Positions 4,259 to 60,386 of a DNA stretch of 64,000 bases are shown in pieces. Both the position numbers and the translations under genes were made by a program. Origin of the DNA: Terribacillus sp. FSL K6-0262 (GTDB lineage: Bacteria; Bacillota; Bacilli; Bacillales; Amphibacillaceae); assembly GCF_037977385.1 (NCBI RefSeq), contig NZ_CP150277.1:2643001-2707000 (forward strand), written 5' to 3'. Under the pieces are notes generated by a model that saw nothing but the letters and a program-made list of their open reading frames with translations, was not told the DNA's origin and did not search any database. Positions within the stretch are counted from its first letter, which is position 1. Every line of letters starts with the position of its first letter.

Positions 4259-5119
4259 TCATCTGATGTATTTACCATAGATTAGCCAGGGATCATCATC
4301 CTCCGCGAAGCTCTCCTTAAAGACTGCGGGTATGCAGGAAGCATTCCCCGGTGAAACATCCAGCTGGGGGACGAGCTGTCTATCGGATTGCTGCAAATAG
4401 TCGAACACAGCAGCCCACAGGCCATCCTGCTCAAACACATCCGGCCAGAAATATTGGATCTGGGCTAAGTCCCTGCCTTTAAAGTCTTCTTGGATCGCCA
4501 TGATGCGACTGGCATCCGTATTGCGGAATACGGAGAGTTTCTCTATGTACTCATCCTCCAGTATGGCGGCAGCATAAGGAATAGGAAAATAGGCTTCATA
4601 TGGATAAAAAGCCAATTTTGTATCCTTGGCTGCTTGTTCGATTGCATCGCGCTTCGCTTCGGTTCCTTCGATTGGCTGCCATGGTGCAGCGGCAGGAAAC
4701 TCGGCCTCCCCTGGATTTTCCATCAGCAGACTGATGAATTGACTGTTATACCGCATATTGAGCTTGTCCAGTACCCGCTGTGCAGGTAGGTTGGACTTGC
4801 GGGTGATGGCGCCAAGCCAATTCATCCTAGGGTCTTGTTCACAATAGGCAATGATATGCTTCAGTAAAGCTGTGGCATTCCCTTTGGATTGATAGCGGAT
4901 ATCACTGCGTAATCTGCCTAATATACCGTTTCCATTCGGCAAACGGTATACCCCTGCCACTGCAGCAAGCCCTTCCTCTGTCATCAGGCCGAACAGGGAT
5001 TGAGCAGGGTTTTCGATCAGCTGCGGGAAAGACCCGATCACATAATCATCCTCGATGCCGGTTTGCATATCGAGCACTGACCGGTAATCATCGATAGTCA
5101 ATTGCCTTATCGTCGTCAT
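4259..5119 (-). CDS. GNAT-family N-acetyltransferase
   Basis: A 286-residue protein with an N-terminal GNAT fold: the acetyl-CoA-binding stretch RSDIRYQSKGNATALLKHII (about 89-108) is a variant of the R/Q-x-x-G-x-G/A loop, preceded by the VAGVYRL strand. The C-terminal half (about 150-286) matches nothing I recognise and may bind the substrate. It is a single gene on the opposite strand, inserted between rnr and smpB, which are usually adjacent in B. subtilis. The acetyl acceptor cannot be predicted. Confidence 0.75.
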   Translation of the reverse strand: MTTIRQLTIDDYRSVLDMQTGIEDDYVIGSFPQLIENPAQSLFGLMTEEGLAAVAGVYRLPNGNGILGRLRSDIRYQSKGNATALLKHIIAYCEQDPRMNWLGAITRKSNLPAQRVLDKLNMRYNSQFISLLMENPGEAEFPAAAPWQPIEGTEAKRDAIEQAAKDTKLAFYPYEAYFPIPYAAAILEDEYIEKLSVFRNTDASRIMAIQEDFKGRDLAQIQYFWPDVFEQDGLWAAVFDYLQQSDRQLVPQLDVSPGNASCIPAVFKESFAEDDDPWLIYGKYIR

Positions 5120-5236
5120 CTTCTATTACACTCCAATCAATCAGGTTCTTATCCATTCCCGATTCAGTATATGAATCGTTAGGATAATCATACAGTTTCT
5201 GATAAAATAAAGCTCGTAGTTAGGAGGAAGAAGTCT

Positions 5237-5701
5237 ATGGCTAAGGGACAAGGTAAAGTACTCGCACAGAATAAGAAGGCCAATTTCGATTATGCAATCG
5301 AAGAGACGATCGAAGCTGGCATCGTTCTGCAAGGTACCGAGATCAAATCGATCCGTGCCGGCCGAGTCAATTTAAAAGATAGTTTTGCCAGGATCGACCG
5401 CGGGGAAGTCCGCATCATCAATATGCATATTTCGCCGTATGAACAAGGAAACCGATTCAACCATGATCCGACACGGACAAGGAAGCTGCTATTGCACCGC
5501 AAGCAGATCGATAAACTGATCGGTCAGACGCAGCAGCAGGGTTATTCCTTGGTGCCGATCAAGCTGTACATCAAAGACGGCTTTGCAAAAATCCTGCTTG
5601 GTGTCGGGAAAGGGAAAAAGAAATACGATAAACGTGAAGATCTCAAACAAAAGCAAATGAAACGCGATGTAGATCGTGCGATGCGCGACCGCGATTATTA
5701 A
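5237..5701 (+). CDS. smpB: SsrA-binding protein SmpB
   Basis: SmpB binds tmRNA and places it in the A site of stalled ribosomes. The 154-residue sequence is full length, with the OB-barrel stretch [22 protein letters not shown] and the basic C-terminal tail ([17 protein letters not shown]...) that reaches into the empty mRNA channel. AGGAGG precedes ATG 5237. The partner ssrA gene starts about 100 bases downstream. Confidence 0.98.
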
Positions 5702-5703
5702 AC

Positions 5704-5731
5704 TTGCATTTCCTGATAAAGATGATATAAT
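5704..5731 (+). promoter_or_regulatory. Candidate ssrA promoter
   Basis: TTGCAT (5704-5709), 16-base spacer, perfect TATAAT (5726-5731). It sits directly after the smpB stop and would give a precursor with about 60 bases of 5' leader to be trimmed to the mature tmRNA end. Confidence 0.6.
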
Positions 5732-5797
5732 GGAATTTGTCTGGGATTTGAATTTATCCTAAGTGAACGGGTTACTTCCTGTAGCCCCCATTATCAT

Positions 5798-6160
5798 GGG
5801 GACGTTACGGATTCGACAGGGGTAGATCGAGCTCAGGCTGCGTGTCGAGGTTACGGCTCGTAAAACGTTACGCCTAAATATAACTGGCAAAACTAACAAC
5901 AACTACTCTCTAGCAGCTGCGTAAGCACTCCTGGAGGATCCTTGCTGCCATCGCCCATGTGGCAGATTCGAGGGTCTCAAACTGAAGTGGGCTACGCCAT
6001 CATCCTCCGCTTGCGGATGATCGGAAGAAGACAATCAAGCTAGCCTCGCTGAAAGCCTGTCGTTAGGCCGAAGCGTGTGCGAATTATAATATGACGACTA
6101 CACACGTAGATGCCTGAGTGCCGATATCTCTGGACGTGGGTTCGACTCCCACCGTCTCCA
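5798..6160 (+). ncRNA. ssrA: Transfer-messenger RNA (tmRNA)
   Basis: The tRNA-like ends are clear: GGGGACGTTACGGATTCGAC at the 5' end and GGTTCGACTCCCACCGTCTC near the 3' end, with the acceptor stem GGGGACG pairing to CGTCTCC (6153-6159, one G-U pair) and discriminator A6160. The next bases are TCC, so the CCA end appears not to be encoded. The tag reading frame starts at GGC 5886 after the resume region and ends at TAA 5922-5924, giving (A)GKTNNNYSLAAA, which carries the usual GKTN start but an unusual LAAA end. Position after smpB is conserved. Confidence 0.96.
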
Positions 6161-52042: not shown

Positions 52043-52900
52043 ATGGATAAAAAACGCAACCTGACTTACTATGCTGGACAGGGATTACCTGCATTCCAAA
52101 AGCGAAAGTTAGCTCCCAGAATGCTGGAAGCATTAACACAGCTCGTCCGTTTTGGCTGGGAGCAGGCATTATCCTGTTTGTTTCCGGTCGTGATTTTTGC
52201 TTCTTTGGCTCTGACTCAAGTTATTTCGCTGCCCTTTCTGCCGCGTTATGACTGGCTGCTTATCATCTGTCTTCTGATGCAAATGCTGATGTTACGTTCC
52301 GGTCTTGAAACAAGGGATGAACTAAAGGTAATTACGGTATTCCACCTAATCGGTCTTGCGCTTGAATTATTCAAGGTACATATGGGTTCCTGGTCTTATC
52401 CTGAAGAAGGCTATTCCAAATTCTTCGGCGTTCCATTGTATAGCGGATTCATGTACGCCAGTGTCGCGAGTTATCTTTGCCAGGCATGGAGAAGGCTTAG
52501 GGTTGATCTTGTTGATTGGCCGCCGTTTCTGGCCGTTGTACCGCTGGCATCTGCGATTTACTTGAATTTCTTCACCCATCATTATTGGATGGACATTCGC
52601 TGGATATTATCCGGATTGGTGCTCGTTGTTTTTTGGCAATCATGGGTAACCTATGAAATCGGAGGAACCCGTTATCGAATGCCACTCGCGCTTTCCTTTG
52701 TACTCATCGGTTTTTTCATCTGGATTGCCGAGAATATCGCCACCTTCTTTGGCGCTTGGGAATATCCGAACCAAGCTGATGCATGGAGTCTCGTCCATCT
52801 GGGGAAGGTGAGTTCATGGCTTTTATTAGTGATAGTGAGTTTTATGATTGTGGCAACGTTGAAGCTGGTCAAGGGGAAAAATGACTCGGTCAATGGTTAA
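52043..52900 (+). CDS. DUF817 membrane protein (YoaT-like)
   Basis: 285 residues with seven or eight hydrophobic segments. The DUF817 stretches RFGWEQALSCLFPVVIFASLALTQ, ALELFKVHMGSWSYPE, SGFMYASVASYLCQAWRRL and THHYWMDIRW are clear; several His/Trp residues lie near membrane ends. Function unknown. Third gene of the yoaS-yozG-yoaT-like trio; a terminator follows. Confidence 0.85.
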   Translation: MDKKRNLTYYAGQGLPAFQKRKLAPRMLEALTQLVRFGWEQALSCLFPVVIFASLALTQVISLPFLPRYDWLLIICLLMQMLMLRSGLETRDELKVITVFHLIGLALELFKVHMGSWSYPEEGYSKFFGVPLYSGFMYASVASYLCQAWRRLRVDLVDWPPFLAVVPLASAIYLNFFTHHYWMDIRWILSGLVLVVFWQSWVTYEIGGTRYRMPLALSFVLIGFFIWIAENIATFFGAWEYPNQADAWSLVHLGKVSSWLLLVIVSFMIVATLKLVKGKNDSVNG

Positions 52901-52974
52901 GGAGTCCGATAGAACATTATCTTTCTGTCACGCTTACGTTGCATGCAAATCACTGATATGAAAGGACTATAAGA

Positions 52975-53005
52975 AAAAGCTGTTGATTCGGAATTAACAG
53001 CTTTT
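52975..53005 (+). terminator. Terminator of the yoaS-yozG-yoaT-like operon
   Basis: Stem AAAAGCTGTT/AACAGCTTTT followed by TT and C. Confidence 0.85.
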
Positions 53006-53349
53006 TTCTATATACGTGAAACAGATACTGTTATAGGATGAGCATTCATACCAGGGAATATAATATTCATGAAAAAATATTTTATTTTTTCAGAAAGTAA
53101 CTTGAAGGAAATTACCACCCATGATATTATGAACTCAAGTCAGATTGATAAGACATTGAATAAATTACAGAAAAAAGAAAGCGTTATCAGAATAATAGGA
53201 AGGAGATGTATGATACGTAAAGCTTGAATATACTTGTTCAATGGGGAAAATAACGTCATCATGAATATTTTTTTCTTTATTTTATAATATTTTATGGAGA
53301 AAATAATCTTCATCGCTTAAAACTTTTCAAATTGAAGGAGACTGGCACA
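53006..53349. promoter_or_regulatory. AT-rich control region ahead of the sugar locus
   Basis: About 340 AT-rich bases. A perfect inverted pair AATATTCATG (53062-53071) and CATGAATATT (53260-53269) brackets it, and a TATAAT (53283-53288) lies 60 bases ahead of the first gene without a good -35. A weak 52-codon frame (53069-53227, MKKYFIFSESNLKEITTHDI...) lacks a good ribosome site. The likely content is the promoter and operators of the sugar genes. Confidence 0.45.
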
Positions 53350-54387
53350 ATGAAGGCTGCGATTTTTCATGGACCAGGAAGGTTGAAAGTGGAAGACGTC
53401 ATCAAGCCAGACATAGAAGAGAATGAAGTTCTTCTTAGGGTCAATGCAAGCGCTGTATGTGGGACAGATGTCAGGATCTTCGAAGGGAAGAAAACGAAGG
53501 GTGTGAGAACCCCATCTGTAATTGGTCACGAACTCGTCGGTACGATTGAAGAGGTCGGGGCCTCTGTAGCCGGATTTTCCAAAGGCGATCGGGTTGGTGT
53601 TATGCCGGTAATTCCCTGCAGAAGATGTTACTATTGCTTGAATAAGCGGGAAAATGTTTGTGCGAATCGTACGGCTATCGGTTATGAGTATGATGGCGGT
53701 TTTGCAGAGTATGTAAAAATTCCAAACGCAGCTTTAAGTGCGGGCAATCTGGTAAAAATCCCTGATCATATAACATTTGAAGAAGCAGTTGTTACGGAGC
53801 CTCTTGCTTGTTGCATCAATGGCCAAAAAAAAGCGAAAGTGAAAATGGGGGATGTCGTGGTTGTCATGGGGGGCGGTCCCATCGGTCTGATGCATGTACA
53901 GCTGGCAAAATTATCAGGTGCCAAATCAGTGATACTGAGTGAACCTATTGAACATCGCAGGGAAAAAGGATTGGCTGCCGGGGCTAAATATGCAATAGAT
54001 CCCAATCAGGAATCATTGAAAGATGTTGTATCAAGGGAGACAGATACTTTAGGTGCAGATGTGGTCATCATGGCTATAGGGGTACCTGCACTAGTGAACA
54101 CGGGTATAGGTTTATTGAAAAAAGGCGGTACTTTAAACCTTTTTGCAGGATTTACAAAAGGTGTACTATCCGAAGTAGATCCGAATGTAATTCATTATAA
54201 TGAAATTACAATTAACGGAACATCCGCTTTGACTAGAGCTGATTACCATGAGGCGCTATCCCTCATTTCATCTGGAAGCATTAACACAGCAGTGATAACA
54301 ACAACCGGCTATAAATTGGAGAATATAGAACAGGCTATCTTGGATGTGCGGAATGGATCTGGCATGAAAACGGTTATTACCCAATAA
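53350..54387 (+). CDS. Zinc-dependent polyol/sugar-type dehydrogenase (MDR family)
   Basis: 345 residues. Catalytic zinc ligands Cys37 (SAVCGTD), His60-Glu61 (IGHE) and probably Glu150; structural zinc Cys90/93/96/104; NAD-binding GGGPIGL (174-180). The layout is that of sorbitol, threonine and galactitol dehydrogenases, so the reaction is oxidation of a secondary alcohol of a polyol or sugar acid. ATG 53350 follows GAAGGAGA. First gene of an operon with aldolase, kinase and importer. Confidence 0.88.
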   Translation: MKAAIFHGPGRLKVEDVIKPDIEENEVLLRVNASAVCGTDVRIFEGKKTKGVRTPSVIGHELVGTIEEVGASVAGFSKGDRVGVMPVIPCRRCYYCLNKRENVCANRTAIGYEYDGGFAEYVKIPNAALSAGNLVKIPDHITFEEAVVTEPLACCINGQKKAKVKMGDVVVVMGGGPIGLMHVQLAKLSGAKSVILSEPIEHRREKGLAAGAKYAIDPNQESLKDVVSRETDTLGADVVIMAIGVPALVNTGIGLLKKGGTLNLFAGFTKGVLSEVDPNVIHYNEITINGTSALTRADYHEALSLISSGSINTAVITTTGYKLENIEQAILDVRNGSGMKTVITQ

Positions 54388-54415
54388 CAAATTATAAGAA
54401 AGAGGAGTGCTTATT

Positions 54416-55240
54416 ATGACATTGTTAGGTAAGGAAATCCGGATGAACCGCCTTATTAACCGCGAGTCTGGGAAACTATTGGCTGTAGCTGTCGATCAGG
54501 CTTTGGCACGTGGAATATTCGAGGAGCTTATGCCAATCCAGCGAAAGATAGATGAAATTGTAGCAGGTGGACCGGATGCAATGACTATGCATAAAGGAAT
54601 TGCGGATATGTGTTTCCGATCACATGCAGGAAAAACAGGTATGATCTTAAAATGCTCTACTTTTTCGCCATGGCAGCCGAACTATGATACATGGGTAACG
54701 GAAGTGGAAGAAGTGGTTCGTTTAGGAGCAGATGCTGTTTCTATGGGATGCATTGTTGGAGGCGGTGATCAGCCAGAACAGCTCCGTAATCTGGGTATTA
54801 TCGCTGGGCAGGCAGCCAAGCATGGTCTTCCGATGATAGCGCATATCTATCCGAGAGGAAACCAAATTCCAGACAGCGAGAAGAATGATTGGAAACATGT
54901 TGCCTATGCAGTTCGTGCAGGCGCAGAGCTAGGTGTGGATATTGTAAAAACAAAGTATACTGGCAACCCGGAAACATTCCATAAGGTCGTTGCTTCCACT
55001 CCTGGGAAGGTTGTAGTGGCTGGCGGAGATAATGGCAGCAATATAGAGGATTATTTCCAGATGGTTTATGATGTAATGGATGCCGGCGGTACTGGTATAA
55101 CATTTGGCAGGATAGTCTGGAATAACCCTAATCCCACGGCTGTAGTCCGGGCGTTCAAACATATCATCCATAATAAGGGTACAGTGAAAGAAACAGTGGA
55201 GCTTTATGAGGAATTAGTTAATTCACCATTAAATGTATAA
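54416..55240 (+). CDS. Class I aldolase of the DhnA/LsrF (FbaB-like) fold
   Basis: 274 residues, TIM-barrel. The Schiff-base lysine is predicted in GVDIVKTKYTGNPETF; VAVDQALARG at the start and VVVAGGDNGS...GITFGRIVW near the end form the phosphate-binding site typical of DhnA/LsrF-type enzymes. Known members cleave or thiolyse phosphorylated keto-sugars. In this operon it probably splits the phosphorylated intermediate made by the kinase. ATG 54416 follows AAGAGGAG. Confidence 0.82.
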   Translation: MTLLGKEIRMNRLINRESGKLLAVAVDQALARGIFEELMPIQRKIDEIVAGGPDAMTMHKGIADMCFRSHAGKTGMILKCSTFSPWQPNYDTWVTEVEEVVRLGADAVSMGCIVGGGDQPEQLRNLGIIAGQAAKHGLPMIAHIYPRGNQIPDSEKNDWKHVAYAVRAGAELGVDIVKTKYTGNPETFHKVVASTPGKVVVAGGDNGSNIEDYFQMVYDVMDAGGTGITFGRIVWNNPNPTAVVRAFKHIIHNKGTVKETVELYEELVNSPLNV

Positions 55241-55255
55241 TGGACGGTGACAAAA

Positions 55256-56776
55256 ATGTCTCATATTATTGGTATTGATATAGGGACCAGTGGAATCAAA
55301 GTTGGGGCAATGGATAGGGAAGGAATATTAGGCTGCTTGGAATATCAGCCTTACTCCCTTCTTTTCCCTGCCCATGGTTTGGCCGAAATAGATTTAGAGG
55401 ATGTTTGGCGGAAGACAAAGTCGTTATTTTTAAAGGTCTGGAGTCAGGTAGAGCGGTTAGGTGCCGTAGATGCAATCTCTCTTTCTACTTTTTGTAATTG
55501 TTCTGTTTTTTTGAATGAAGAAGGAGAGCCTTTATCACAAGGGATAATGTACTTTGACCAGCGTAGCAAGTTTGAATCCAGCTGGGTGAAAGATGTTATC
55601 GGTGAGGACCGGATATTCGAAGTGTCGAAAAACCGAATGGAGCCAGGAATGTTTACAATTACGACTCTTCTTTGGTTTAAGAATAATCATCCAGATCTCT
55701 ATGATCAGATGTATAAATGGGGAAACCTATCCACGTTTATCTTGAATAAGCTGACCGGCAGTTTTGTCATGGATTGGACTCAAAGCTCTTTTACAGGAAT
55801 GTACGATTTGAAAAATTATGAGTGGTCTTTGGACATTATAATGAAAGTAGGCATAGATAGGGAAAAACTTCCATCAGTGGTTGATCCAGCTTCCATTGTC
55901 GGCAATTTGGCTCTTGAAGAGATTGGTATAGAGGGCATACCAGTATTTGCCGGAGCTGCGGACACTGCTTGCTCCACTGTTGCACTCGGTGTCGGGATCA
56001 ATGACATGTTTGAATCGGTAGGGACTTCGAATGTGCTGACTGTTTGTACCGATAATCCTGACAACTTGGATAATCGTTTTTTAAACAGATGCCATGTAAT
56101 GAAACACCGCTGGCTCTCCCACGGCGCGATGTCATTTCCAGGTGCATGCATTCAGTGGTTTTATGAACAATTCTTAAAGCCGGAAGGGTATTCCAAGGAT
56201 ATTCTTGAAAACTTATGCAAGCAATCTCATATTGGTGCAGGCGGAGTATTCTTTCTGCCGTACATGCAGGGAGAACGATCGCCTATCTGGAATTTCGACG
56301 CAAGAGGAGTATTTGCGGGAATCAATTTAAATACTTCCAAAGCTGATATGTTCAGAGCTATATTAGAAGGATGTGCTTTCGGGCTCAAACAGATTTATGA
56401 AATTATCGAAACAAACTATCAGCTTCATGTGGAAAGCTTCCCATCTATCGGTGGGGGAGCAAAAAATAAGGAATGGGCTGGTATTAAATCAAACATCCTG
56501 AATAAAAAAATCCATCTGAAGGATATATCCGAAACGGCAGTCTTAGGAACATGTTTAATTGCTGGTTCATCAATCGGTTACTATTCATCTTTGGAAGAAG
56601 CAGCAAAGGCAGTCAGAAATCGCACTGTTTGCACTATAGAACCAAATACTGCTGTATTAAGCCAATATGAGGAACTATATGAGGTATTCAAGCAATTATA
56701 TCCATCGTTGCAGATGTTCTTTGCTCTAAGTTCCAAATCCAGACGAGAGAAAAACTCTCTTGAAGAAATAGTGTAG
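55256..56776 (+). CDS. FGGY-family carbohydrate kinase
   Basis: 506 residues, two-domain FGGY kinase. The N-terminal phosphate loop IIGIDIGTSGIKVGAMD, the catalytic aspartate region GIMYFDQRS, and the second-domain segments GTSNVLTVCT, PYMQGERSPIWNFDARGVFAG and SIGGGAKNKEWAGIKSNILNKKI are in order. It resembles xylulokinases and gluconate kinases broadly, but the sugar cannot be named. ATG 55256 has GGTGA at proper distance; GTG 55247 is an alternative. Confidence 0.88.
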   Translation: MSHIIGIDIGTSGIKVGAMDREGILGCLEYQPYSLLFPAHGLAEIDLEDVWRKTKSLFLKVWSQVERLGAVDAISLSTFCNCSVFLNEEGEPLSQGIMYFDQRSKFESSWVKDVIGEDRIFEVSKNRMEPGMFTITTLLWFKNNHPDLYDQMYKWGNLSTFILNKLTGSFVMDWTQSSFTGMYDLKNYEWSLDIIMKVGIDREKLPSVVDPASIVGNLALEEIGIEGIPVFAGAADTACSTVALGVGINDMFESVGTSNVLTVCTDNPDNLDNRFLNRCHVMKHRWLSHGAMSFPGACIQWFYEQFLKPEGYSKDILENLCKQSHIGAGGVFFLPYMQGERSPIWNFDARGVFAGINLNTSKADMFRAILEGCAFGLKQIYEIIETNYQLHVESFPSIGGGAKNKEWAGIKSNILNKKIHLKDISETAVLGTCLIAGSSIGYYSSLEEAAKAVRNRTVCTIEPNTAVLSQYEELYEVFKQLYPSLQMFFALSSKSRREKNSLEEIV

Positions 56777-56851
56777 AATTTTGTAAGCCCTTACATCAGG
56801 TTGCGCATCTGCTGTGTATTTTAATAAATGAAATTTGGGGGAGGCAAGACA

Positions 56852-58177
56852 ATGGCTTTACCTGAATCTGAATTTCGCACGAAGAATAAATCCAACTACC
56901 GTTGGATAGTCCTCTTGATCATATTCATTCTGTATATTGTCTGTTATGCGGATCGCGCAAATATAGGTGTGCTGCTGCCGTTTATTCAAGAAGACTTTGT
57001 TCTTAGTAACTTTCAGGCAGGTGCAATCTCAAGTTTCTTTTTCTTAGGCTATGCTGTATCACAAATTCCAGCTGGTTTTTTACTCAGTAAAAGAGGGACT
57101 CGCAGCATTGTAGCCATCGCAGCTATTGCATTTTCCATAGTCACTTTCCTTCTGGGGACTGTCTCAGGTGCGGCAATGCTGATTTTGCTCCGTTTAGCTC
57201 TGGGTCTGGCTGAAGGACCAGTTCCTGTCAGTATGTCTACAACGATAAATAACTGGTTCCCAGCTAAAGAAAAAGCGACTGCAACTGGTGTTTATATTGC
57301 TTCTACACAGCTTGCTCCGATATTTGTACCAATCGTGACCACGGCAATCGCTGTTTCATTAGGCTGGCGTTATGTGTTTTTCTGGTTTGCGGTTCCAGGT
57401 ATCATCATAGCCATCATTTGGTACTTTTTGGTTAGGACAAAACCGGAAGAAAGTACCAAAGTATCCAAAGCCGAATTGGAATATATCCGCCATGAAGAGG
57501 CTCCCATAATGGAATCGGTAGTACAGGAAGAAAAATCACTTGGATGGATTGATAAAGTGATTCGTTACAAGAAGGTGGAGCCATTAAGTACCTACAAAAG
57601 CATTTTCACCTCTTGGAATATCATGGGTAATACATTTACTTACTTCTTAATGAATAGTGTTTTGTATGGCATGTTAACTTGGGTCCCGATGTATCTGGTT
57701 AATGCCAAGGGCTATTCCTTTATGCAAATGGGGTTTGTTGCGGCCACTCCTGCAGTTGGCGGATTGGTTGGTGCTATTTTAGGAGGGATCATATCAGATA
57801 AAGTTTTTCTCAATAGGCGTAAACCAACCATGTTGATTACAGCAATCGCTACAGCGATCATGATGCTTGTTGTGATAAATATTCCAGACAATGGAGCGGT
57901 TGTAGCAATAAGTCTAGCTCTGGCTGGATTCTTCCTCAATATCGGGTGGCCGGCATTTACTGCCTATCCTATGGGACTTACAACCAGGGAAACCTTTCCA
58001 GTGGCGATTGCTACGGTAAATAGTGGTGGAAACCTAGGGGGATTTTTTGCTCCAATGATAGTAGGAGCAATTCTGGATGCGACAGGGAATTATGATATTG
58101 CCTTCGGTTTCTTTGGGATATTGCTTGTTCTCGGGTTCCTCATCATTCTCACATTGAAAGAACCTAAGGTAGCATGA
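56852..58177 (+). CDS. MFS transporter, ACS (anion:cation symporter) type
   Basis: 441 residues with 12 hydrophobic segments. RWIVLLIIFILYIVCYADRANIGVLLPFI and RLALGLAEGPVPVSMSTTINNWFP are characteristic of the ACS group, which imports hexuronates, galactonate, glucarate and related anions with protons. This hints that the substrate of the locus carries a carboxylate. ATG 56852 lies eight bases after GGGGGAGG. A terminator follows. Confidence 0.88.
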   Translation: MALPESEFRTKNKSNYRWIVLLIIFILYIVCYADRANIGVLLPFIQEDFVLSNFQAGAISSFFFLGYAVSQIPAGFLLSKRGTRSIVAIAAIAFSIVTFLLGTVSGAAMLILLRLALGLAEGPVPVSMSTTINNWFPAKEKATATGVYIASTQLAPIFVPIVTTAIAVSLGWRYVFFWFAVPGIIIAIIWYFLVRTKPEESTKVSKAELEYIRHEEAPIMESVVQEEKSLGWIDKVIRYKKVEPLSTYKSIFTSWNIMGNTFTYFLMNSVLYGMLTWVPMYLVNAKGYSFMQMGFVAATPAVGGLVGAILGGIISDKVFLNRRKPTMLITAIATAIMMLVVINIPDNGAVVAISLALAGFFLNIGWPAFTAYPMGLTTRETFPVAIATVNSGGNLGGFFAPMIVGAILDATGNYDIAFGFFGILLVLGFLIILTLKEPKVA

Positions 58178-58200
58178 CATGGACTTTAGCTGAATCCGCA

Positions 58201-58217
58201 ATTCATGTTAAATGAAT
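58201..58217. promoter_or_regulatory. Palindrome ATTCAT-5-ATGAAT between importer and RpiR gene
   Basis: ATTCATGTTAAATGAAT is a 6-5-6 inverted repeat. It shares ATTCATG with the inverted sites in front of the first gene of the locus, so it may be an operator of the RpiR-type regulator. Confidence 0.35.
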
Positions 58218-58237
58218 AATGTGTTTTTTATGTCGGG

Positions 58238-58258
58238 GGCATGGAAAATTCCATTGCC
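58238..58258 (+). terminator. Terminator of the four-gene sugar operon
   Basis: GGCATGGAA/TTCCATTGCC (one bulged T), followed by TTTCTTTTTTC. Confidence 0.8.
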
Positions 58259-58290
58259 TTTCTTTTTTCAATTAGAAAAGAAGGCACCAT

Positions 58291-58296
58291 TATAAT
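58291..58296 (+). promoter_or_regulatory. Candidate promoter of the rpiR-type gene
   Basis: Perfect TATAAT at 58291-58296, about 45 bases before the start codon; the best -35 is a weak TTCAAT at 58267-58272 with an 18-base spacer. Confidence 0.5.
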
Positions 58297-58341
58297 AAAA
58301 TAGTAATTACAAGAAATAAGAAGAGAAGGTAGGAATTATCA

Positions 58342-59208
58342 ATGAACGGTTTAAATATCAATACCACTCCCGGTTTTTTTACCAGAATTAATGCAGCGAA
58401 GACAAAGCTGAGGGATTCTGAGAAAAAGATAGTTGAGTTCATTGAAAATCATCAAGAAGAAATCATTCATCTGTCTATTACGGAAGTTGCAGAAAGAAGT
58501 GAAACAAGTGAATCCTCTGTTGTCCGTTTATGTAAGCGGCTCGGGTATAAAGGATTTCAGGACTTTAAAATTCATCTGGCCAAAGAGGTTGTTGCCCCAG
58601 ACAAGCAGATTTCGGAAGTGATCGAAAAAGGTGATGATTTCATTACAATAAAAAAGAAGGTTTTCCAATCAAATATCCAAGCTCTGTATGATTCCATTGA
58701 AGTATGCAGCGACGAGGAAATCCAGGAAGCTGTAAAAGCGATATCTAAAGCAAGGTTGATTGAATTTTATGGTACCGGTGGTTCAGGAACAGTTGCGCTG
58801 GATGCTCACCATAAGCTATTAAAACTAGGGATAAAATCGTTTGCCTATAATGATGCTGTACTCCAGGCAATGTCCGCCAGCGTGCTTACAGAACAGGATG
58901 TTGTGATAGGGATTTCCCATACTGGATCGAATAGAGAAGTTCTGGCAGCCATGGAATTGGCTAAAGAGGCAGGAGCAACACGGATTTGCATTACCAATTC
59001 AACTAAGTCACCGATTACAAAAATATCTGATATCGTCCTTCAAACAGCGTCGAATGAAACATTATTCCGCACAGATGCAATATCCTCCAGGATTGCTCAG
59101 TTGACGATTGTCGATGTGTTAGTGGCAGCTGTAGCTAACCAGAGATACGAATATTATCTATCTAATTTACAGAAGACTCGCACCTCGACCACTGGAAAAA
59201 AACTGTAG
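58342..59208 (+). CDS. RpiR/MurR-family transcriptional regulator
   Basis: 288 residues: an N-terminal HTH_6 domain (KLRDSEKKIVEFI...SITEVAERSETSESSVVRLCKRLGYKGFQDFKIHLA) and a C-terminal SIS phosphosugar-binding domain (about 125-260; IEFYGTGGSGTVALDAHHKLLKLG, VVIGISHTGSNREVLAAMELAK). Such regulators respond to phosphosugars; here the ligand should be the product of the FGGY kinase or the aldolase substrate. It has its own promoter between the operon and the dehydrogenase gene. Confidence 0.92.
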   Translation: MNGLNINTTPGFFTRINAAKTKLRDSEKKIVEFIENHQEEIIHLSITEVAERSETSESSVVRLCKRLGYKGFQDFKIHLAKEVVAPDKQISEVIEKGDDFITIKKKVFQSNIQALYDSIEVCSDEEIQEAVKAISKARLIEFYGTGGSGTVALDAHHKLLKLGIKSFAYNDAVLQAMSASVLTEQDVVIGISHTGSNREVLAAMELAKEAGATRICITNSTKSPITKISDIVLQTASNETLFRTDAISSRIAQLTIVDVLVAAVANQRYEYYLSNLQKTRTSTTGKKL

Positions 59209-59324
59209 GGAGATTTCTTCTTTGGAGATATATTTGAAGGAAACTTCCACCTGTTTAATGTATCGGAAATTGAAAACGAATTCCTTAATAGTTTGATTTC
59301 CATCCCAAAAAGGAGGAGAAAAAC

Positions 59325-60293
59325 TTGAAGAGCAAGGTTTATCTGACTAGGAAGCTGCCAAGAGAAGTTCTTGATAAGCTATCTGGCTATTTTCAATTGA
59401 AAATGTGGGAGGAAGAAAACATACCTGTACCGAGAGATGTTTTGCTGAAAGAAATAGAAGATACAGATGGCTTATTATGTTTGTTAACAGATGCCATTGA
59501 TGAAGAAATGGTAAATAGAGCTGCTCAGCTAAAGGTTATTTGTAACCTGGCTGTCGGCTATGACAATATCGATATGGAAGCAGCGGCAAAGAAAGGTATC
59601 ATCATTACAAATACGCCGGGAGTTTTGACCGAAACTACAGCCGATTTGACTTTTGCATTGTTAATGGCAGCTGGACGGAGAGTTGTGGAAGCATCAGATA
59701 CATTGCGCAGTGGGGGCTGGGGAGCGTGGTCCCTAATGCAGTTGACGGGACAGGATATTCACGGCGCTACCATAGGCATCATTGGATTGGGCCGAATTGG
59801 AGAAGCACTTGTGAAACGGGCGAAAGGCTTTGATATGAACGTACTTTATTATAGTCGAACCAGAAAGATTAACAAGGAACAGGAACTGGATATCTCATAT
59901 GCAAATCTGCCTGACTTATTACGACAGTCTGATTATGTATGTATCATGATTCCGTATAACGATGAATCCCACCACATGATTGGGGAAGAAGAATTATCAC
60001 TCATGAAAAACACTGCGATATTAGTAAATTCATCAAGAGGCGGAATTGTCGATGAGGATGCTCTATATAATGCCTTGAGCCGAGGGGACATATGGGCGGC
60101 AGGGCTGGATGTTTTCGAACAAGAGCCGGTACGCCTTGAGCATCCATTACTTTCCTTGCCAAACGTGGTCGCGCTGCCACATATAGGAAGTGCCAGTGTA
60201 AGAACCAGAATGCAGATGGCTCATTTAGCTGCTGATAATTTGGTAAGTGCCCTGACTAGAGGTATTCCTATTACTCCTGTCCGTGAACACTGA
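59325..60293 (+). CDS. D-isomer-specific 2-hydroxyacid dehydrogenase (glyoxylate/hydroxypyruvate reductase type)
   Basis: 322 residues. NAD-binding GLGRIG (154-159) and the catalytic Arg238 (NSSRGG), Glu267 (FEQEP) and His286 (LPHIGSA) are present. In the sugar locus it could reduce glyoxylate or hydroxypyruvate released by the aldolase, or oxidise a sugar acid. TTG 59325 follows AAAAAGGAGGAG. AT-rich like its neighbours; the stretch after it returns to backbone composition. Confidence 0.88.
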   Translation: MKSKVYLTRKLPREVLDKLSGYFQLKMWEEENIPVPRDVLLKEIEDTDGLLCLLTDAIDEEMVNRAAQLKVICNLAVGYDNIDMEAAAKKGIIITNTPGVLTETTADLTFALLMAAGRRVVEASDTLRSGGWGAWSLMQLTGQDIHGATIGIIGLGRIGEALVKRAKGFDMNVLYYSRTRKINKEQELDISYANLPDLLRQSDYVCIMIPYNDESHHMIGEEELSLMKNTAILVNSSRGGIVDEDALYNALSRGDIWAAGLDVFEQEPVRLEHPLLSLPNVVALPHIGSASVRTRMQMAHLAADNLVSALTRGIPITPVREH

Positions 60294-60386
60294 GTGATTT
60301 CCATATAAGTTGAGAGCCAGTATGCACGGTGCGTTTGAGGATGACCAGTGCCGGGAACATTTCCTTTAACAAAGGAGATGAAGCCC

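Follow-up and report, generated by a model that had tools for sequence, protein, structure and literature searches.

In the lower myo-inositol route, the kinase IolC makes the 6-phosphate of a 5-keto-hexonate, from which a DHAP-forming aldolase (IolJ or the proposed DUF2090) then releases dihydroxyacetone phosphate (DHAP) and a C3 acid semialdehyde. The L-idonate and L-galactonate pathways employ an acid importer and a zinc dehydrogenase (IdnD, LgoD) that oxidizes C5 of an aldonate; the resulting 5-keto acid is reduced or dehydrated and ends in Entner-Doudoroff steps. In the rhamnulose- and fuculose-1-phosphate pathways, an FGGY kinase acts next to a ketone and is followed by a DHAP aldolase, in this case a class II enzyme acting on deoxysugars. 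PMC9007349 proposes a role as 2-deoxy-5-keto-gluconate-6-phosphate aldolase for DUF2090, a domain that is akin to DeoC/LacD-type aldolases and occurs as a fusion with IolC. The locus described here bears a likeness to each of these systems. It is a six-gene island of Terribacillus sp. FSL K6-0262, lying in a stretch of 64,000 nucleotides (contig NZ_CP150277.1, positions 2,643,001 to 2,707,000) referred to as the window. Its gene set is a real, conserved and mobile module that most likely encodes a sugar-acid pathway of the kinase-plus-DHAP-aldolase kind, and its route to glycolysis intermediates appears to be uncharacterized.

All six genes are complete open reading frames (ORFs) on the + strand, encoding in order a zinc alcohol dehydrogenase, an aldolase, an FGGY carbohydrate kinase, an MFS importer, an RpiR regulator and a 2-hydroxyacid dehydrogenase (HADH). 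The first four are separated by gaps of 19, 6 and 51 nt, an operon-like spacing. Pfam and NCBIfam profile searches, together with the intact ORFs, bear out the six families and the gene order of a first-pass annotation made from the sequence alone. None of the six proteins passes an NCBIfam equivalog cut-off among the matches shown (for the MFS protein, the best 25 of 52 families).

Our best explanation, to which we give somewhat less than an even chance, is an acquired, self-regulated island that would convert an aldonate into a 5-keto-aldonate, its 6-phosphate, then DHAP and a C3 oxo-acid, and finally D-glycerate. The MFS protein would import a six-carbon aldonate with protons, and the zinc dehydrogenase would oxidize its penultimate carbon to give a 5-keto-aldonate, the kind of acid to which 5-ketogluconate, fructuronate and tagaturonate belong. 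The FGGY kinase would then phosphorylate O6. Through a Schiff base at C5, the class I aldolase would split the C3-C4 bond, releasing DHAP (C4-C6) and a C3 oxo-acid (C1-C3), namely tartronate semialdehyde, which is tautomeric with hydroxypyruvate. Reduction of this C3 acid by HADH would give D-glycerate, and a glycerate kinase whose gene lies outside the island would pass the glycerate into glycolysis. This succession of import, oxidation, phosphorylation, aldol cleavage and oxo-acid reduction had been suggested by the first-pass annotation and fits the comparative evidence. The substrate is most likely a sugar acid; which one is a more tentative matter.

The module recurs widely. A scan of a genome collection gave 593 confirmed stretches, of which the best 80 were kept, archaeal relatives of 2-amino-3,7-dideoxy-D-threo-hept-6-ulosonate (ADH) synthase among them. 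The 48 closest loci were examined, and the other 32 (L057-L088; lower identity, mostly archaeal) were left out of the context counts. Gene counts come from tblastn matches (E up to 1e-12) at any place in the available locus piece, a recount covering all 48 loci, including four in which ORF calling had missed the aldolase (L027, L031, L034, L043); several contigs are short, and absences are therefore soft. The FGGY kinase is present in 44 loci, the zinc dehydrogenase in 40, RpiR in 31, HADH in 31, TRAP genes (receptor) in 27, a phosphoribosyl pyrophosphate (PRPP) synthetase in 11, glycerate kinase in nine, the window's MFS type in eight (two of them weak) and GntP in three. Weak hits possibly outside the module include MFS at 26-31% in L017 and L035 and TRAP at 29-34% in L033, L034, L038, L039 and L042. 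The genome-neighborhood comparison proposed in the first-pass annotation finds the same genes together in relatives, a grouping far from chance. By sequence comparison, the gene set is an old, conserved module, distributed over Bacillaceae, Clostridia, Selenomonadaceae, Synergistota and Succinivibrionaceae.

Two loci have another kinase. An IolC-type 5-dehydro-2-deoxygluconokinase scores above the cut-off of 300 near the aldolase in Sporomusa (L026, 345) and in a member of the Aeromonadales (L034, 319), and in no other of the loci scored; weak IolC matches (25-27%) in L013-L015 were left out of this count. Both loci lack the FGGY kinase, and their aldolases are sisters in the tree (100/95), beside the FGGY-linked group. 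The replacement of FGGY by an IolC-type kinase in two sister lineages favors a linear 5-keto-hexonate as the kinase substrate. As in the inositol route, a 5-keto-hexonate kinase would precede an aldolase yielding DHAP and a C3 acid semialdehyde, and an IolC-type kinase stands beside the window-type aldolase in these two lineages. The island differs in its FGGY rather than IolC-family kinase, its DhnA-type aldolase, the preceding zinc dehydrogenase and the importer, and no other iol-type gene was recognized in it; its C3 product would moreover be hydroxylated and reduced by HADH. The two loci have aldolase, IolC-type kinase and an acid transporter close together (L026:10001-11860 and L034:2190-6837) and no other inositol gene among the neighbors scored (two proteins in L026, eight in L034). 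Their aldolases are candidates for a further type of 5-keto-(2-deoxy)gluconate-6-phosphate aldolase.

The aldolase is of the DhnA family and passes a single NCBIfam model, the subfamily model NF005556, which is named for ADH synthase (250.2 against a cut-off of 241). It was rejected both as ADH synthase itself and as archaeal class I fructose-bisphosphate (FBP) aldolase, falling below the curated equivalog cut-offs of TIGR01949 (210.3 vs 299.45) and of the archaeal FBP aldolase model (154.7 vs 430). Lys181, Tyr148, Gly206-Gly207 and Gly234-Arg235 are invariant in an alignment of 30 of the 120 listed homologues, and align with MJ0400, an ADH synthase (K184, Y153), and archaeal FBP aldolase (K177, Y146). 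We take Lys181 to be the Schiff base lysine and Tyr148 the catalytic tyrosine, and assign roles to the GG and GR loops on the same assumption; the family of MJ0400 and archaeal FBP aldolase handles ketose-1-phosphates. The predicted structure has a mean pLDDT of 92. With these sequence features the enzyme is predicted to be a DHAP-forming DhnA class I aldolase. It shares its family and the aligned catalytic Lys and Tyr with ADH synthase and differs from it in equivalog score, in the separate clade of the archaeal relatives and in the catabolic context of the island. The names given to close homologues include fructose-bisphosphate aldolase and that of an archaeal enzyme of aromatic biosynthesis; because the equivalog model fails, the ADH-synthase-type names are probably wrong.

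The loops also bear on a different cleavage, in which the dehydrogenase would oxidize C2, the kinase would make a 2-keto-6-phosphoaldonate, and the aldolase would release hydroxypyruvate and glyceraldehyde-3-phosphate. Hydroxypyruvate would then be made directly for HADH, the enzyme type of 31 of the 48 loci, but Gly/Arg loops common to ketose-1-phosphate enzymes suit DHAP and not a carboxylate, and aldonate C2 is usually oxidized by other families. We consider this route quite unlikely. Of the earlier label "DhnA/LsrF-fold", the first half stands and the second does not, since the protein is closer to MJ0400 and has the Tyr that LsrF lacks. A kinase beside a DhnA-fold enzyme does recall the Lsr system for autoinducer-2, a resemblance the first-pass annotation rightly doubted: the aldolase reaches 121.5 of the 297 required for LsrF and the kinase 134.5 of the 528 required for LsrK, the Tyr is present, and no ABC importer, of the Lsr type or any other, is found among the island ORFs. 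Processing of autoinducer-2 was rejected on these grounds as extremely improbable.

The remaining catabolic enzymes also score below the cut-offs of named families. For the zinc dehydrogenase, predicted like IdnD to oxidize C5 of an aldonate, the best scores are with the TDH and IolM models, and the IdnD model gives 126 against a cut-off of 469. The kinase scores 296.1 with xylulokinase (TIGR01312; cut-off 380.25), and the fuculokinase and rhamnulokinase cut-offs lie far above its scores (149.8 vs 470.9 and 61.2 vs 527.95). HADH is best matched by the glyoxylate reductase model NF009714, below the equivalog cut-off (392.2 vs 455), and its closest PDB matches include glyoxylate reductases. These matches suit a pentonate substrate, with C4 oxidized, O5 phosphorylated, DHAP and glyoxylate released, and HADH acting as a glyoxylate reductase that forms glycolate. 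Such a route would keep the rest of the chemistry and require no isomerase. It is nevertheless unlikely, as a glycerate kinase, superfluous for glycolate, accompanies the module in nine of the 48 loci, and IolC-type kinases, present in two lineages, act on hexonates.

The six-carbon scheme accommodates the glycerate kinase: in L040 and L056 its gene lies directly 3′ of HADH, and this adjacency suggests that the C3 acid becomes D-glycerate. The source genome has two glycerate kinases elsewhere, one of them 61% identical to Escherichia coli GarK. A branched acid of the 2-C-(hydroxymethyl)-pentonate kind, for example hamamelonate (2-carboxyarabinitol), would lead to the same end by oxidation of C4, phosphorylation of O5 and a C2-C3 split that gives DHAP and hydroxypyruvate directly, HADH then producing D-glycerate. 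Such a substrate would account for HADH and glycerate kinase without hydroxypyruvate isomerase (Hyi) or GarR, the usual reductase of tartronate semialdehyde; however, no gene indicating a branched acid was recognized among those annotated, the IolC-type replacement favors linear 5-keto-hexonates, and three GntP loci without the dehydrogenase would require a pre-oxidized substrate. We hold this reading to be rather improbable. These three loci (L039, L042, L048) form a variant of RpiR, kinase, GntP permease and aldolase, an arrangement that fits the import of an already oxidized keto acid.

The transporters point to the substrate class. Residues D42, R43, R122 and E129 of the MFS protein match D46, R47, R126 and E133 of DgoT, which according to PMC6532931 comprise the two proton sites and the carboxylate-binding Arg. 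With the DgoT family model TIGR00893, the protein scores below cut-off (239.3 vs 395). Many relatives have organic-acid transporters of the TRAP or GntP type in place of MFS, and the three types alternate across most loci. Two TRAP binding proteins compared with PDB entries are both closest to 7bbr, which we take to be the sugar-acid-binding protein CxaP. The title of the CxaP paper appears in the reference list of PMC12076931. Because of the DgoT-like Arg and proton sites and the TRAP and GntP genes of relatives, a sugar acid is favored over the other half of the initial proposal, "sugar-acid or polyol", and the MFS protein would be its proton-coupled importer.

Regulation appears to be built into the module. 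An 18-nt motif, TTGAAGGAAAYTWCCACC, has exactly two exact copies in the 3.35-Mb genome, one ahead of the dehydrogenase operon (53102) and one ahead of HADH (59234); the closest other site differs at two positions. Sixteen related loci contain 24 sites with at most one mismatch; for the reversed motif they contain none. A search of 15 related whole genomes (that of L023 left out) for WTGAAGGAAATTACCACC, one mismatch allowed, gives 23 sites in 13 genomes, all within module loci by coordinates and none outside the module; the L012 and L024 genomes have no such site. The inner half of the motif is palindrome-like, and in L022 the palindrome is full. In relatives, it also precedes TRAP genes and the zinc dehydrogenase gene, and in L010 and L011 the PRPP synthetase gene, which is followed by glycerate kinase. 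In the window, the presumed operon promoter takes its -35-like hexamer and the greater part of its spacer from the motif (TTGAAG, 17 bp, TATTAT, with a TG before the second hexamer forming an extended -10), in a promoter scan that overall stands at chance level (20 sites vs 19.5 expected from shuffles). Several first-gene motif sites in relatives share this promoter-like arrangement, and -10-like positions after the motif are moderately conserved; no fixed -10 follows the relatives' sites directly before the zinc dehydrogenase gene or the window's HADH copy.

The RpiR protein has HTH_6 (87.9 bits) and SIS (79.3 bits) domains, both above cut-offs, and its gene is present in all 15 loci L009-L023, with 78-86% identity in 12 and 68-74% in the remaining three. 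From this co-occurrence, RpiR is presumed to bind the motif. It would repress both transcription units through it, covering the -35 and spacer in the operon promoter, until released by a pathway metabolite. The 13-letter operator core had no match in a literature search. In L019 (Halobacillus andaensis), RpiR is found as two adjoining ORFs (127 and 170 aa, at about 4900-5800), possibly through a frameshift or a sequencing error.

The locus is apparently a horizontally acquired island from another bacterium. DNA similarity to nine genus relatives ends at 52858-52881 of the window and resumes at 60351-60371, and the flanking DUF817 and SDR genes adjoin each other in all nine. The aldolase is absent from all nine other same-genus genomes examined and present in three of 159 family genomes, including the source genome. 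The G+C content is 0.39-0.44 across the island and 0.47-0.50 in the downstream backbone; this is weak evidence for insertion because the upstream neighbors at 51-53 kb are likewise low. A tree of 83 aldolases places the window's enzyme with those of Neobacillus, Fictibacillus, Fredinandcohnia and Bacillus (98/83) and the enzymes of the other two family carriers with those of Oceanobacillus and Metabacillus (98/93). This suggests that the window lineage and the other two carriers gained the island separately. No mobile-element gene was recognized among the island ORFs (ORF list and Pfam).

Several observations weigh against the 5-keto-aldonate scheme as a whole. Its weakest step is the last, as a tartronate semialdehyde route should favor a GarR-type reductase or hydroxypyruvate isomerase and HADH suits hydroxypyruvate better. 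With E. coli K-12 GarR, GlxR and Hyi as queries, GarR is found in two of the 48 loci and Hyi in none, and the source genome has no Hyi above cut-off. On these counts we rejected the idea that the module works with a hidden GarR or Hyi partner; both GarR genes lie on the opposite strand beside hexarate-type genes. Either HADH accepts the semialdehyde, or the tautomers interconvert, or the host's GarR-type enzyme (one above cut-off, outside the island) helps, or hydroxypyruvate or glyoxylate forms directly. Glycerate kinase is absent from the island and from 39 of the 48 locus pieces. Of the IolC-linked loci, L034 is a long branch of unsure tree position, both lack HADH, and both may use a 2-deoxy acid. 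Motif sites with up to three mismatches number 12 in the source genome against five for the reversed-pattern control, for which reason only exact copies are meaningful there, and the reversed control gives two sites against the 23 in the 15 related genomes. The pathway itself is read from sequence, its activities being predicted. Finally, some contexts fit salvage of a neutral sugar, polyol or deoxysugar (such as a 5-deoxypentose) through a ketose-1-phosphate aldolase. L024 and L037 carry a sugar-binding-protein-like lipoprotein and after it genes belonging to two shared clusters, which suggests a sugar ABC importer. In L028 (890-8057), distant relatives of the dehydrogenase and aldolase adjoin a ribokinase, a nucleoside hydrolase and a deaminase-type amidohydrolase (below cut-offs), which suggests a use of the family in nucleoside or deoxyribose salvage. 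However, DgoT-type or TRAP transporters occur together with HADH in the window and in L009-L023, the other loci closest to it, and for the window such salvage is a low-probability reading.

The first-pass annotation found no standard route that the locus matches, and the literature searched, which leaves most subscription journals outside, likewise yielded no description of a matching pathway among the matches listed. A more far-reaching reading, to which we give a low probability, is a pathway of several phyla not described before, whose DhnA-family aldolase would split phosphorylated keto sugar acids into DHAP and hydroxypyruvate or its tautomer; in the boldest form of this reading, the substrate would be a branched acid such as 2-carboxyarabinitol. 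That acid, a metabolite of leaves, has a link to the control of Rubisco, and its bacterial degradation was not found among the matches listed. If the proposal is true, a bacterial aldolase subfamily now named after fructose bisphosphate or archaeal aromatic biosynthesis would gain a function. The locus offers a complete pathway hypothesis, with operator, transporters and downstream enzymes, in several phyla, and the regulated pathway apparently moves between bacterial groups as one unit.

Table 1. Features of the island, in window coordinates
Feature	Position	Strand	Basis
Inserted island, approximate limits	52881..60352	no strand	Similarity to genus relatives lost between these points
Terminator-type hairpin after upstream DUF817 gene, inside inserted stretch	52968..53012	+	52960-53015 folds at z -6.3 with T-run; self-inverted match
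Putative operator copy 1 (TTGAAGGAAATTACCACC), over -35 and spacer of presumed operon promoter	53102..53119	+	Exact motif
Predicted -10 element TATTAT	53125..53130	+	Promoter scan
Zinc alcohol dehydrogenase, predicted to oxidize an aldonate at C5, its penultimate carbon	53350..54387	+	PF08240, PF00107
DhnA/DeoC-LacD class I aldolase; predicted 5-keto-aldonate-6-phosphate aldolase	54407..55240	+	Pfam, NCBIfam, alignment, model
FGGY carbohydrate kinase; predicted 5-keto-aldonate 6-kinase	55247..56776	+	PF00370/PF02782
MFS (ACS/SLC17-type), DgoT-like predicted importer	56828..58177	+	Profile scores, DgoT residue matches
Possible weak terminator, formed by hairpins in the MFS-RpiR gap	58241..58286	+	Folding; no consensus-scan call
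RpiR-family regulator (HTH_6 + SIS); presumed binder of operator motif	58342..59208	+	Pfam
Putative operator copy 2 (TTGAAGGAAACTTCCACC), upstream of HADH and without a promoter call	59234..59251	+	Exact motif, promoter scan
D-2-hydroxyacid dehydrogenase (HADH), GRHPR/glyoxylate-hydroxypyruvate reductase type	59325..60293	+	Pfam, NCBIfam, PDB matches

Some boundaries allow more than one reading. The zinc dehydrogenase starts with ATG, and an alternative TTG is possible 18 nt upstream; most aligned homologues of the aldolase start at the ATG at 54416, against the ORF start at 54407. An operon terminator had been placed after the MFS gene: the region 58240-58300 does fold better than shuffles (z -3.6), but the consensus scan calls no terminator there.

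Further observations concern the relatives. Many Bacillaceae loci contain a PRPP synthetase paralogue inside the module (L010:15936-16904, L009:13328-14329 and equivalents; the match in L051 is lower), which the window island lacks. In Synergistaceae (L052:1524-4768, and L050), a hexarate-type set with MR_MLE, DHDPS-type and GarR-like (64%) genes lies near the module on the opposite strand. The record titled Chryseobacterium sp. ISL-80 (L016) has a Bacillaceae-type module with an 82% aldolase that groups with Bacillus timonensis (97/89), and this assembly is likely mislabelled or contaminated.

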